Assembly (NCBI RefSeq): GCF_009733815.1
Contig: NZ_WNXY01000009.1
Span: 248,001 to 312,000 of the forward strand
DNA: 64,000 nt
From: Pseudactinotalea suaedae
GTDB taxonomy: Bacteria > Actinomycetota > Actinomycetes > Actinomycetales > Beutenbergiaceae
Direction of reading: 5' to 3'
The notes below the pieces were generated by a model, which saw only the letters and a list, made by a program, of their open reading frames with translations, did no database searches and was not told the origin of the DNA. The position numbers were made by a program, and so were the translations under genes. The first letter of the stretch is position 1. Every line of letters begins with the position of its first letter. Positions 114 through 3,704 of the stretch are shown piece after piece.

Positions 114-1100
114 GTGCAGTACGGTCGAGCCGTGGGATCCGCCGTCGCAGTTGTCGGGCTGCGTCGCGAGTTCGGGGGCCGTCGGGGGCAGCCGGTCGTG
201 ACGGCGCTCAAGGACGTCAACCTGCAGATCCCCGAGGGCGAGATCCACGGGCTGCTGGGCCCCAACGGTGCGGGCAAGACCACGCTGTGCAAGATCCTCT
301 CGACCGTGCTGCTCCCGACGCGAGGCAGCGTCGAGATCTGCGGCTACGACGTCGAGTCCGAGACCGCCGCCGTGCGGCGCCTGATCGGCATCGTGTTCGG
401 CGGCGAGCGGGGTCTGTACACCCGGCTGACGGCGCGTGGGAACCTCGAGTTCTGGGCGTCGCTGTACGGCCTCTCGGGCACCCAGTCGCAGCGGCGCGTC
501 GGACAGCTGCTGGAGCGACTCGGCCTCGACCAGCGCGCAGACACCCGCGTGGAGACCTTCAGCCGCGGCATGAAGCAGCGCCTCCACCTGGCGCGCGGGC
601 TCATCGGCGACCCCCGCGTGCTCATCCTCGACGAGCCGACCACCGGCATGGACCCCGTCGCCGCGCAGGAGTTCCGCACGCTGGTGACGAGCCTGCAGAC
701 CGAGGGCCGCACGATCCTCGTGACCACGCACGACATGGCCGAGGCGGAGGCCATCTGCGACCGCGTCACGCTCATCGACCACGGCTCGGTCCTCGCGACC
801 GAGCGGCCCAGCACCCTCGGCAGGTGGATCACCCGGTACGCGCGGGTGCGCGCCTCCGGGCTGCTCCCCGCGCAGGTCGCGCCGGTCACGGCGGCCCTGT
901 CGGGGCTCGACGGCGTGGCCACCGTCCACGAGGTCGCAGAGGGGACGCTGCTGGTCGACACCGCCGCCGACGGCGCAGCCCCGGCGGTCATGCGGCTCCT
1001 CCTCGACCTAGGGATCACCGACGTGGCGACCACGCGTCCGGACCTGGCCGAGGTCTACCTGCGCGTCATCGGCAACCGCGGGATGCGGGTCGATCGGTGA
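114..1100 (+). CDS. ABC-2 type exporter, ATP-binding protein
   Basis: This is the cytosolic ATPase of a multidrug- or antibiotic-type ABC exporter (CcmA/DrrA-like). Walker A (GPNGAGKTT) is near residue 49, the signature FSRGMKQRL near 149, Walker B plus D-loop (ILDEPTTGMD) near 171, and the H-loop in TTHDMAEAE follows. The roughly 100-residue C-terminal extension is typical of DrrA-like ATPases. The GTG start at 114 lacks a strong ribosome-binding site, and a GTG at 132 is an alternative. The stop overlaps the start of the first permease (GTGA), so all three exporter genes are probably translationally coupled. The substrate cannot be read from sequence. Confidence 0.93.
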   Translation: MQYGRAVGSAVAVVGLRREFGGRRGQPVVTALKDVNLQIPEGEIHGLLGPNGAGKTTLCKILSTVLLPTRGSVEICGYDVESETAAVRRLIGIVFGGERGLYTRLTARGNLEFWASLYGLSGTQSQRRVGQLLERLGLDQRADTRVETFSRGMKQRLHLARGLIGDPRVLILDEPTTGMDPVAAQEFRTLVTSLQTEGRTILVTTHDMAEAEAICDRVTLIDHGSVLATERPSTLGRWITRYARVRASGLLPAQVAPVTAALSGLDGVATVHEVAEGTLLVDTAADGAAPAVMRLLLDLGITDVATTRPDLAEVYLRVIGNRGMRVDR

Positions 1101-1915
1101 CGCTGATCATCGCGCCGCCGACACGTCTCGAGTCGGCGCTGGCCTACCTGAACGGGTTGCTGGCGGGCAGCGAGCGTGAGGTTCGCGAGCTGCGCCGCTC
1201 CCCCGACCGGCTGATGGCGCTGGTGACGGCGCCGCTGCTGACGCTGGTGTTCCTCGCGATCATGCTGCAGGCAGGACGCGAGGACCTGGCGCCGTTCGCG
1301 GTGCTGGCGCCGGCGCTGCTGGTGCTGTGGCAGATGGCGCTGCAGACCTCGGGCGACACGGTCGAGAGCGAGCGCGAGAACGGCTCCCTGGAAGCGCTGG
1401 TGGTCGCACCGGCACCGTTCCCGGCGGTGATCACCGGTCGGATCGCGGCGGTCACGACCGTGTCGATGCTCGGGTTCGTGGAGTCCTGGCTGGTGGCCGC
1501 GCTGGTGTTCGGGGTGCGGGTGGAGATCTACCACCCGTGGGTGTTCGTGGGCGCCGTCCTCGCCACCGCCTACGCCACGGCCGGCAGCGCGATGGCGCTG
1601 GCGGCGCTGTTCGTGCGCACGCGCGCCGCCCGCGCCTTCCAGAACACCTTGACGTACCCGTTCTACATCCTGGGCGGGATCATCGTGCCGGTCAGCTATC
1701 TGCCGGACTGGCTGGAGCCCGCGACCCGGCTGGTGTTCCTGTCCTGGTCCTCGGACCTCATGCGCAGCTCGCTCGACGCCGGACCGGTCCAGGGCGTCGC
1801 GCTGCACCTGGTCATGATCGTGCTGCTCGGCACGCTCGGCGGCGTCGTGGGTGGGGTGCTGGTCCGGCGCGCGCTCGCCGAGGTCCGGCAGACGGGCACC
1901 ATCGGCCATGCCTGA
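1097..1915 (+). CDS. ABC-2 type exporter permease 1
   Basis: This 272-residue membrane protein has about six hydrophobic segments and the ABC-2 membrane fold. The segment ESERENGSLEALVVAP, near residue 90, is the cytosolic coupling region typical of this family, and YPFYILGGIIVPVSYLP is the conserved segment before the last helices. The GTG at 1097 overlaps the ATPase stop by four bases and fixes the start. It probably forms a heterodimeric pore with the next gene product. Confidence 0.9.
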   Translation: MTLIIAPPTRLESALAYLNGLLAGSEREVRELRRSPDRLMALVTAPLLTLVFLAIMLQAGREDLAPFAVLAPALLVLWQMALQTSGDTVESERENGSLEALVVAPAPFPAVITGRIAAVTTVSMLGFVESWLVAALVFGVRVEIYHPWVFVGAVLATAYATAGSAMALAALFVRTRAARAFQNTLTYPFYILGGIIVPVSYLPDWLEPATRLVFLSWSSDLMRSSLDAGPVQGVALHLVMIVLLGTLGGVVGGVLVRRALAEVRQTGTIGHA

Positions 1916-2762
1916 CAGCGCTGCAGCCGTCGAGCGGCCCGTGGTCGGCACCCGACTGCCGCGAGGGACCACGGCGCGCGTGGTGCTGGCCTCGAGCAGG
2001 AACGCCTGGGCCGACCTGGCGGCCACCTTCACGCCGCTGACCTGGACGCTGGGCTGGCTCGGCAGGATCGTGGCCCAGGTCATCTTCTACGCCCTGATCG
2101 GCTCGCTGCTGGGCAGCCCCGATCGCATGCGGTACCTGTACATCGGCGCCGCCGTGGTGGCGACGGCGATGGAGACGCTGCTGGTGGTCTCGACCAGCAC
2201 CCGCGAGCGCTACTCCGGCACGTTGCCGCTGCTGGTGGCCTCGCCGAGCCGGTTGTGGCCGGTGTTCCTGGGGCGCAGCGTGCAGTGGCTGCCGAGCGGG
2301 GTCGCGACGGCCACGGTGGCGCTCTTCGCCATCGGCCCGGCGTTCGGGGTGCGGTTCACGCTCAGCAGCGGGTTCGCCGCCTTCGGGGTGCTCGTGCTGG
2401 TCGCGATCACCACCTACGGCTACGGCCTCGCGCTCGCGGCGCTGGTGCTGCGCTTCATGCGGCTGCGGAACTGGGCGACCAACCTCTCCTACACGGTCAT
2501 GATGCTGATCTGCGGCGTCACGGTGCCGCTCTCGTTCTGGCCGGTGTGGCTGCAGGGTGCTGCCCAGGTCTTCCCGCTGACCCACACGCTGCACGTGATC
2601 CGGCTGCTCGAGGGCGGCACGGGCGACTCCCTCACGATCCTCACCTCGCTCGGGCTGGCGGTGCTGACGTCGCTCGGTTGGTACGGCGTGGCCGCGTTCC
2701 TCCTCGAACGGCTCGCCACCGCCGGCCGCCGCCGCGGGAGCATCGAGTTCGCCGAGTCCTGA
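1908..2762 (+). CDS. ABC-2 type exporter permease 2
   Basis: This second ABC-2 membrane subunit has 284 residues and about six hydrophobic segments. The coupling region reads TSTRERYSGTLPLLVASP, and FWPVWLQGAAQVFPLTH is the conserved region before the last helix. The ATG at 1908 lies eight bases inside the preceding gene, consistent with translational coupling. Two non-identical permeases beside one ATPase suggest a heterodimeric exporter. No local regulator is obvious. Confidence 0.9.
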   Translation: MPDSAAAVERPVVGTRLPRGTTARVVLASSRNAWADLAATFTPLTWTLGWLGRIVAQVIFYALIGSLLGSPDRMRYLYIGAAVVATAMETLLVVSTSTRERYSGTLPLLVASPSRLWPVFLGRSVQWLPSGVATATVALFAIGPAFGVRFTLSSGFAAFGVLVLVAITTYGYGLALAALVLRFMRLRNWATNLSYTVMMLICGVTVPLSFWPVWLQGAAQVFPLTHTLHVIRLLEGGTGDSLTILTSLGLAVLTSLGWYGVAAFLLERLATAGRRRGSIEFAES

Positions 2763-2897
2763 CCGGACCTGCGCCCACCCCGCACCGGGTCTCGACCCAG
2801 TTCTGACCTTCCCCGAGCAAGCCCCGACGGGCGCCAGATCGCGGTGAGCGAAAAACCTGGCGGAACCCTCGCCGTCGGACATACCGTGCTGCTACAC

Positions 2898-3104
2898 GCG
2901 AAAGGAGGTGGTCCGAGACGTGAAGAATCTTGGGACTCGTGAGGTGACTGCCCGCTAGGGCTCACTGCCGCAACGGACGGCTACTGCCCATCCCGACGGC
3001 GCGTGAGCGCTGGTGAGATCACGGCAGTCACCCGAAGGCCCGCGTAGCCGCACACTCGTCCAGTGCGGCGCCCCGAGATCATTCTCGGGAGGCGCGGGCC
3101 TTCG
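2898..3104 (+). ncRNA. Structured RNA locus with a leader-peptide-like frame
   Basis: The DNA between two annotated genes folds into nested perfect stems. 2943-2952 pairs with 3023-3032 (10 bp). Inside it 2960-2965 pairs with 3003-3008 and 2967-2970 with 2997-3000. Directly adjacent, 3033-3044 pairs with 3093-3104 (12 bp). That stem encloses two hairpins, 3047-3053/3063-3069 and 3072-3077/3084-3089, giving a three-way junction. The 5' end carries GAAAGGAGGTGGTCC (2900-2914), complementary to the 16S rRNA 3' tail over 15 bases with one G-U pair. Nothing is encoded downstream on this strand, so this looks like a free-standing RNA or attenuated leader. The last stem could also terminate the GNAT gene on the other strand. 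I cannot name a known family. Confidence 0.55.
2920..2958 (+). CDS. Possible 12-residue peptide in the structured RNA
   Basis: A GTG 11 bases after a GGAGG core opens a frame reading MKNLGTREVTAR (first codon GTG), ending at TAG. The Shine-Dalgarno match is far longer than that of any other gene in this window. The last codons overlap the left arm of the 2943-2952/3023-3032 stem, so ribosome movement would open that stem, as in leader-peptide attenuation. Whether the peptide is made or conserved cannot be judged from one genome. Confidence 0.4.
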   Translation: MKNLGTREVTAR

Positions 3105-3704
3105 TCATGCCCGCGTGCTCGACCGCCGCATCGAGACGTACTCCGAGAACCCGGCACGGGCCGGTGAGCGCATCGGCCGGCTCGCGGACTGCTCGAAGCC
3201 CAGCTTCCGGTACAGCGCCAGCGCGGCGACGTTGGTGTCCTTGATGTCCCGGAGCAGCAACTCGTCGATGCCTGGCAGCGCCAGCAGGTGCCGCATCAGC
3301 GCCGTGGCCACCCCGCGGCCCTGGTAGGCCGGGGCGGTGGTGACGAAGCCGATCTCCGCGAGGCCGGGGCGCGCGTCCGGGGGTGAGCCCAGGAACTGGC
3401 TCCGCACCACGAGATAGGTGATCGTGCCGTGCACCAGCCCGAGACGCCGCCGGATCGGTGCCCAGCGCGGGGCGAAGCACTCCTGCCGGCCCTCGGTCAG
3501 CGAGGCGATCGCCGCGGGCTCGCCGTCGACGAGGGCGACGTAGAAGCGGTCGAGCAGGATCATGTGCTCGAAGGCGTCCGCGAGCTGATCGGGGTCGGTG
3601 GAGAAGTAGGCGAAGTCCTCGGCGAAGCCCCGCACCAGCACCTCGGCGATGCGGCGCCGGAAGGGCTCTCCGAGCTCGTCGGCGCGCCGGATGTCGATGC
3701 TCAT
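3105..3704 (-). CDS. GNAT family N-acetyltransferase
   Basis: This 199-residue acetyltransferase transfers an acetyl group from acetyl-CoA to an unknown amine. The GNAT core is visible. Strand beta-4 (LAEIGFVTTAPAYQG) leads into the acetyl-CoA loop QGRGVATALMRHLL near residues 129-142. The C-terminal DTNVAALALYRKLGFEQ motif is typical of the fold. The ATG overlaps the stop of the TetR gene (ATGA), so the two are co-transcribed and GNAT expression should follow the TetR operator. Its stop lies directly beside the structured RNA element on the opposite strand. Confidence 0.9.
   Translation of the reverse strand: MSIDIRRADELGEPFRRRIAEVLVRGFAEDFAYFSTDPDQLADAFEHMILLDRFYVALVDGEPAAIASLTEGRQECFAPRWAPIRRRLGLVHGTITYLVVRSQFLGSPPDARPGLAEIGFVTTAPAYQGRGVATALMRHLLALPGIDELLLRDIKDTNVAALALYRKLGFEQSASRPMRSPARAGFSEYVSMRRSSTRA

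Follow-up and report, generated by a model that had tools for sequence, protein, structure and literature searches.

In leader-peptide attenuators of the trp and erm type, the position of the ribosome on a very short frame decides which RNA helices form. In dual-function small RNAs (sRNAs) such as SgrS/SgrT, RNAIII/hld and SR1 the peptide matters, and in ribosomal-protein leaders, for example that of E. coli rpsO/S15, the 30S subunit is held on a pseudoknotted start site. The RNA Ms_IGR-5 was reportedly first described by Li et al. in 2013. Rfam lists it as RF02471, an "Actinobacteria sRNA" entered without a function. According to the available parts of the papers concerned, Ms_IGR-5 is supported by an RNA-seq table in S. 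lividans (PMC8079986), is given as an sRNA unit in S. avermitilis (PMC8780764), and appears as a transcript named IGR-5 in M. smegmatis (PMC10454040). Ribosome footprints on it are reported for M. abscessus and M. smegmatis in the accessible sections of PMC4974804, whose authors warn that footprints may arise from RNPs; the accessible passage of PMC3828370 deals with a subject other than Ms_IGR-5.

The literature searched, which had partial coverage, held no description of the short reading frame, the 5' helix P0 or the pseudoknot reported below, and five peptide strings of the frame had no matches in papers. A selected frame whose peptide is not kept, P0 together with the pseudoknot, and a wider taxonomic range were found in no paper searched and are new relative to that literature.

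Family membership, surroundings and distribution

The window (the whole 64,000-nt stretch of DNA analyzed here) contained one match above an Rfam gathering score, a full-length member of RF02471 of about 210 nt (cmscan; score 74.7 bits with the cutoff at 45; E 1.1e-14; model positions 1-184 of 184). It was the single copy in the host genome. An initial reading of the sequence (the first-pass annotation) had described a free-standing structured RNA here, had suspected that its family might already be known, and had proposed Infernal searches of Rfam and of actinobacterial genomes; the Rfam match settles the family, and its features are collected in Table 1. Promoter, P0 and pseudoknot were absent from that annotation. 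We hold family membership, the selected frame, P0, P2 and P4 with very high confidence, and the pseudoknot with high confidence.

Table 1. Features of the Ms_IGR-5 locus (positions within the window)
Feature	Position	Strand	Remarks
Promoter	2851-2887	+	A-tract 2851-2855; weak -35-like TGG 2858-2860; -10 TACCGT 2882-2887
RNA gene, RF02471 Ms_IGR-5	2894-3108	+	cmscan; 5' end near 2894 inferred
P0, 5' strand CACG	2895-2898	+	pairs with 2938-2941
Complement of the 16S rRNA 3' tail, GAAAGGAGGTGGTCC	2900-2914	+	15 nt; exact match, duplex energy, purine pattern
12-codon frame GTG AAG AAT CTT GGG ACT CGT GAG GTG ACT GCC CGC TAG (VKNLGTREVTAR)	2920-2958	+	
Pseudoknot strand GGAC (codons 5-6)	2933-2936	+	pairs with 3058-3061
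P0, 3' strand CGTG (codons 7-8)	2938-2941	+	pairs with the RNA 5' end
P2, 5' strand GGTGACTGCC (codons 8-11)	2943-2952	+	10-bp stem with 3023-3032
P2, 3' strand GGCAGTCACC	3023-3032	+	folding, compensatory variants, scan
P4, 5' strand	3033-3044	+	12-bp stem with 3093-3104; highest-ranking covarying pairs
Hairpin inside P4, loop carrying GTCC (3058-3061)	3047-3069	+	perfect 7-bp stem 3047-3053:3063-3069
Second, variable hairpin inside P4	3072-3089	+	perfect 7-bp stem 3072-3078:3083-3089
P4, 3' strand	3093-3104	+	folding and all-pairs scan

For comparison we collected 174 elements (L001-L174), 54 with the Rfam model and at least 120 with a DNA pattern that fixed GGAGGTGRTCC, GGAC and GTGAGGTG. 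Because the pattern fixes them, neither these letters nor the choice between A and G at R counts as evidence in the pattern loci; left free there were the start and stop codons, the three bases before GGAGG, the third base of codon 6, the first base of codon 7 and all 3' parts. The elements include close relatives, and a thinned set held 140. A further model of the 5' part, R1, was built from 111 sequences.

Promoter. After removal of duplicates and short sequences, the elements gave 166 distinct upstream stretches. All 166 carried TANNNT between -40 and -12 from GGAGG, with 166 occurrences at -24 to -20. A TTG-like block lay at -46 to -44, 17-18 nt above TANNNT, and above it an A block at -53 to -51. 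From the conserved promoter position the RNA should begin near ACAC. The conserved A block above the -35 region may indicate an UP-like element or growth-rate control.

Neighbors. For each of the 174 loci the comparison took in the two closest heuristically called genes on either flank. No neighbor was common across families (the largest similarity cluster covered 44/174 loci), and the nearest downstream gene lay on the plus strand in 84 cases and on the minus strand in 80. The RNA is free-standing on these grounds. In the window itself, the ORF list shows no gene following close by on the plus strand, as the annotation had stated. The next ORF (3105-3704, minus strand) is convergent and, named by eye, looks like a GNAT acetyltransferase; the upstream flank (114-2762, plus strand) reads by eye as an ABC ATPase and two permease genes, so that the flanks appear ordinary. 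The annotation had also offered an attenuator remnant. The short frame does overlap a stem, and the 3' hairpin and P4 are GC-rich, as in a leader-peptide attenuator, but no co-directional downstream gene under its control was found, neighbor and strand vary as described, the RNA has its own conserved promoter, and it is widely conserved rather than decaying. An attenuator or its remnant is barely credible here.

Distribution. The Rfam model matched every genome of the genus (3/3) and family (24/24) and 192 of 296 class genomes, with one match per genome except for one genome with two. The other 104 class genomes had no Rfam-model match, and the DNA pattern found nothing in the 20 Rfam-negative class genomes that were checked with it. 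The RNA is dispensable, since many genomes have no match. Sister lineages apparently without it include G025, G104, G117, G129 and further members of their order; an R1 match was absent in 75/149 order genomes, which offers a natural loss set for a partner-gene search. Across the phylum, the Rfam model matched 40/198 genomes at E <= 0.001 (20 above the cutoff), and at the same threshold R1 matched 141/296 phylum genomes and 74/149 order genomes.

One pattern locus, L106, came from a sequence named 'Spirochaetia bacterium'. R1 matched 10/198 genomes of its phylum, L106's own included, and nine of the ten second-phylum loci (L253-L261; L262 was not located) read as homologues with a Shine-Dalgarno segment, frame, core and 3' arm at a local G+C of 28-66%. 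Seven of these nine, a set that includes L106's own locus, matched the full-length Rfam model, below its cutoff (E 8e-6 to 0.03). Contamination as the source of L106 was rejected because nine further genomes of its phylum matched R1, eight of them with homologues by reading, and because of the seven matches to the Rfam model. The RNA extends beyond its class and reaches a second phylum, which, going by the name of the L106 sequence, is probably Spirochaetota. A mobile element was also considered and rejected: phages gave no match, a plasmid-filed 2.66-Mb Nocardia record gave one partial match, and a viral contig gave one pattern match whose surroundings, read by eye, were unrelated.

The 16S rRNA complement and the short reading frame

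Pairing with 16S rRNA. The 16S rRNA of the host genome ends GGATCACCTCCTTTCT, and the 5' segment of the RNA pairs with this tail across 15 positions, as the annotation had noticed. GAAAGGAGGTGGTCC was the window's sole exact match to GRRRGGAGGTGRTCC and one of three in the whole genome; the second was the opposite strand of the tail of a 16S gene and the third, read by eye, lay inside a coding sequence. The annotation's remark that this pairing goes far beyond that of any gene here is borne out by a predicted duplex energy of -29.3 kcal/mol, against -19.4 kcal/mol for the best in-frame start of 51 window genes that were heuristically called with generously chosen starts.

Changes mapped on a tree of the 140 thinned sequences followed the 16S partner. 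The three positions before GGAGG that face a 16S U changed 11, 16 and 18 times, and every one of the 45 changes exchanged A and G. The preceding G, opposite a 16S C, was invariant, and the base before it was a purine in 85% of 166. The R of GRTCC changed seven times, at a position where the search pattern permitted only A or G. In a recount of 107 of the 109 loci not found by pattern (L207 and L225 were not located), the four U-facing positions were purines in 107, 106, 107 and, at R, 107 loci, the sole non-purine being a T in L182. Variation almost only between A and G, opposite U, is typical of a duplex in which the partner strand stays the same.

Start and stop. The complement precedes the 12-codon frame that the annotation had described. 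Codon 1 was ATG, GTG or TTG in 172/174 elements (47, 33 and 92, respectively), the exceptions being one ATT and L106, whose in-frame ATG lies two codons further up. Codon 13 was a stop in all 174 (TAG 155, TGA 13, TAA 6), and none had an earlier in-frame stop. Actinobacteria are known for GC-rich genomes, and TAG, found in the window at 2956-2958, predominates at codon 13 despite many hosts being named as actinobacteria. On the tree, the first base of codon 1 changed at least 17 times and never to C, the second not at all and the third once, while the stop switched type at least 14 times and was never lost. Weak class matches agreed: in all 29 of the 30 that the script placed (L187 was dropped), the stop kept its place and the start was canonical, lying at the usual distance in 18, one codon further upstream in ten and two codons in one.

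The codons between were less constrained. At codons 2, 3 and 4 the tree called for 64, 61 and 77 changes of the codon itself and for 60, 44 and 61 of the encoded amino acid; these codons vary freely. In 70 of 74 distant loci (L211, L212, L271 and L293 were dropped where the script found no match), the stop lay 15 nt (61 loci) or 14 nt (nine) past the start of GAG, compared with 15 nt in all 174 collected elements. A canonical in-frame start followed the Shine-Dalgarno segment at 2-10 nt in 49/70 by script and at 1 nt in six more by eye, against 6/140 in control frames; the remaining 15 had near-cognate starts only (CTG, ATT, ATC, ATA or ACG). Frame length ranged from 10 to 19 codons and the distance from start to core varied. 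Nine distant loci (L229, L265, L272, L274, L277, L285, L288, L291 and L297) had the frame shifted by one base relative to the RNA core and encoded an unrelated peptide, with start (seven canonical, two ATT) and stop still in register.

Two variants stood out among these loci. L229, L265, L272, L285, L291 and L297 form a shortened variant with a 10-codon frame and mostly a CCAC:GUGG-type P0, in which no pseudoknot stretch was found. L300-L302 form a divergent branch whose frame, of 18-19 codons, would start at AUA, one copy having an extra whole codon.

These comparisons indicate that the frame is under selection, with start and stop kept while their types switch, and that the peptide sequence is not what is conserved, judging from the freedom of codons 2-4 and the nine copies in another frame. 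That the frame is translated and has a ribosome role is strongly supported by start and stop conservation together with the A/G pattern opposite 16S U. The clear selection on start and stop would also suit a dual-function sRNA whose small peptide has a role of its own, and the evidence that the small frame is translated is evolutionary. Against such a role, no conserved functional peptide was found, the letters conserved in codons 5-9 are for the most part those of pairing strands and were partly fixed by the pattern, and codons 2-4, frame length and the nine displaced loci behave as above. We disfavor a functional peptide, and with it the annotation's peptide-coding regulator, because the peptide is unconserved and, in nine distant loci, the core is translated in a different frame; a dual-function sRNA of this kind is very improbable.

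The strongest rival on the 16S side is a ribosome trap or store, in which 16S pairing and the downstream pseudoknot and P2 hold a 30S or 70S ribosome, lowering or storing initiation capacity while little peptide is made. The very strong predicted duplex, the conservation of the complement along the 16S tail and the frequency of weak starts (more than half of the collected elements use TTG, and some distant loci have near-cognate starts only) agree with a trap. However, a pure trap fails to explain why the stop and its near-fixed distance to the core are kept (174/174 and 70/70), since it needs no stop codon, and a cellular effect would require very high RNA abundance. We consider a trap unlikely.

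The fold around the frame

Overall fold. Folding of 2880-3120 gave -125.9 kcal/mol (z -5.2), with none of 200 shuffles as low. The end of the frame forms one arm of P2, and P4 closes a second domain with two perfect hairpins, both as first annotated. All 14,878 column pairs of the 140 sequences were scanned against a tree null of 60 simulated alignments, and the top ten ranks went to pairs of P4 and its foot, of P2 and of P0. Only two P4 pairs scored above all null values. Neither P2, with E 0.2 for its best pair, nor the P0 pair, in ninth place with E 0.47, was significant alone, and the one variable pseudoknot pair (E 46) was not significant. Apart from P4, the helices are supported by tests specified beforehand and by compensatory changes in distant loci, as the scan exceeds its null only for P4. 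Compensatory changes, for which the annotation had suggested an alignment, were found for P2, P4, P0 and the pseudoknot partners; in P2 they include GACCAT:ATGGTC in L043. Together with the covariation in the scan, they support a structured RNA.

Helix P0. The variable pair of P0 was Watson-Crick in 158/174 elements, while 20,000 shuffles had a mean of 94 and a maximum of 119. In 111 diverse sequences, 95.3% of cells were paired against 81.3% in shuffles, double changes numbered 50 against 8.2, and sliding the partner reduced pairing to 6-66%. In 40 fresh loci, 149/160 pairs formed and all four formed in 34/40 (maximum of 5,000 shuffles, 118); the 40 R1-found loci lean slightly towards P0 because R1 includes the four P0 pairs, and L207-L231 came from the Rfam model, in which P0 is absent. 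Relatives carried CCAG:CUGG, CGUG:CACG, CAGG:CCUG, CGGG:CCCG, CAAC:GUUG and CCAA:UUGG.

Rfam instead draws a first helix GGUCC:GGAC, which the window is able to form (2911-2914:2933-2936). Thermodynamics does not decide the 5' structure, because three folds lie within 0.2 kcal/mol (P0 forced, -117.7; Rfam helix forced, -117.8; P2 and P4 only, -117.9 kcal/mol). The pair flanking the Rfam helix showed no covariation (76 paired of 163 against 75.4 expected), which weakens that helix as the main 5' structure.

Pseudoknot. The GGAC of codons 5-6 is fixed by the pattern in at least 120 loci, and its partner is free. GUCC was present in the 3' hairpin loop region of 162/164 elements (10 of the 174 were dropped for want of a recognizable 3' arm and closing stem), against 15-31/164 in five 26-nt segments elsewhere in these elements. 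The sole GGAU element, L054, has AUCC, a compensatory GGAU:AUCC; four AUCC loops were listed, and the other three were script misplacements with GUCC in the same stretch. The next pair outward was standard in 97/163 against 67 expected. Changes on both sides were seen in L189 (GGAACG:CGUUCC), L207 (UCGACC:GGUCGA), L273 (GCGUGACC:GGUCACGC), L280 (GCGCGACC:GGUCGCGC) and L282 (CGUGACC:GGUCACG). In 40 out-of-sample loci the complementary stretches summed to 194, against a mean of 143 and a maximum of 172 in 1,000 shuffles; seven of the 40 had no pseudoknot stretch, and the short stretches in L277, L288, L301 and L302 are probably chance. A permutation test on 21 deviant cores (L182 dropped; own sum 83, mean 67 and maximum 80 in 200 shuffles) is weak because several of its loci were mis-anchored.

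Just before the 3' arm of P2, at about 3014-3022, lies a strand that reads GUGAGAUCAC here and GCGAAUNCC in many relatives. It seems strongly conserved and has no evident partner, and may be a tertiary or protein site.

The folded frame also bears on the view that Ms_IGR-5 is a base-pairing sRNA in which translation serves only to guard the RNA against decay or to clear it. Such an sRNA would be free-standing, as this RNA is, and the accessible parts of the papers report transcripts in Streptomyces (PMC8079986, PMC8780764) and M. smegmatis (PMC10454040), but it leaves unexplained both a frame woven into three helices and the constant distance from stop to P2. We regard it as quite unlikely.

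A possible ribosome-gated switch and its counterparts

In the fold, the 3' hairpin loop, the RNA's 5' end and the 3' arm between them pair with the majority of the bases in codons 5-11. The near-constant distance from stop to GAG and the variable distance from start to core suggest that what is selected is ribosome entry at a very strong Shine-Dalgarno segment, the traverse of just the paired segment and an exit. Our preferred reading, held tentatively and at slightly below an even chance, is that this free-standing RNA is a ribosome-gated switch in which fold and translation are mutually exclusive, as the geometry would imply. The 16S 3' tail would pair with the 5' segment over its 15 positions and lead the ribosome into the short selected frame; a ribosome that initiates and reaches the stop would open the pseudoknot, P0 and P2. 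Folded and translated RNA would be alternative states set by the ease of ribosome initiation, with the peptide as a by-product of translation. In favor of this reading are a start and stop under constraint without a constrained peptide, the A/G pattern of the 16S complement, the helices that overlap the frame, the absence of a common neighbor, the conserved promoter and, subject to the RNP caveat, the footprints published for M. abscessus and M. smegmatis. One state might act in trans, through freed UCACC/GUCC strands, a bound protein or altered RNA decay, and would report or buffer translation-initiation capacity.

Stated more fully, and with more doubt, Ms_IGR-5 could be a class of free-standing bacterial RNA, present in two phyla or more, whose tertiary fold has a frame knotted into it that encodes a peptide of no importance. 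Initiation by a ribosome whose 16S tail pairs with the RNA would toggle two states, and the RNA would serve as a dedicated sensor of free, initiation-competent ribosomes; the sensing may possibly extend to the status of the 16S 3' end. The annotation's idea of a ribosome-sensing RNA is compatible with these results. If the switch reading is true, Actinomycetota, and probably Spirochaetota too, possess an RNA dedicated to gauging translation initiation. An RNA catalogued merely as an actinobacterial sRNA is widespread and apparently under strong selection for translation, with which its fold should compete, and a translated frame can hide in a catalogued sRNA because its peptide is unconserved.

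Among known systems, the switch reading resembles leader-peptide attenuators in that a ribosome on a short frame would choose between helices; unlike them, the RF02471 RNA has no common downstream gene and its peptide is unconserved. It shares with SgrS/SgrT, RNAIII/hld and SR1 an sRNA-size transcript, a small frame and its own Shine-Dalgarno sequence, whereas in Ms_IGR-5 conservation extends to the frame but not to its peptide. As in the E. coli rpsO/S15 leader, a pseudoknot lies near the Shine-Dalgarno sequence and start codon, but the RF02471 RNA is free-standing, without a ribosomal-protein gene, and its frame ends inside the fold. The likeness to the Rfam entry itself lies in sequence, P2, P4 and a full-length model match. 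In its structure line positions 1-13 are unpaired and the end of the Shine-Dalgarno segment pairs with GGAC; to this entry the present analysis adds a selected frame, P0, the pseudoknot, other classes and a second phylum.
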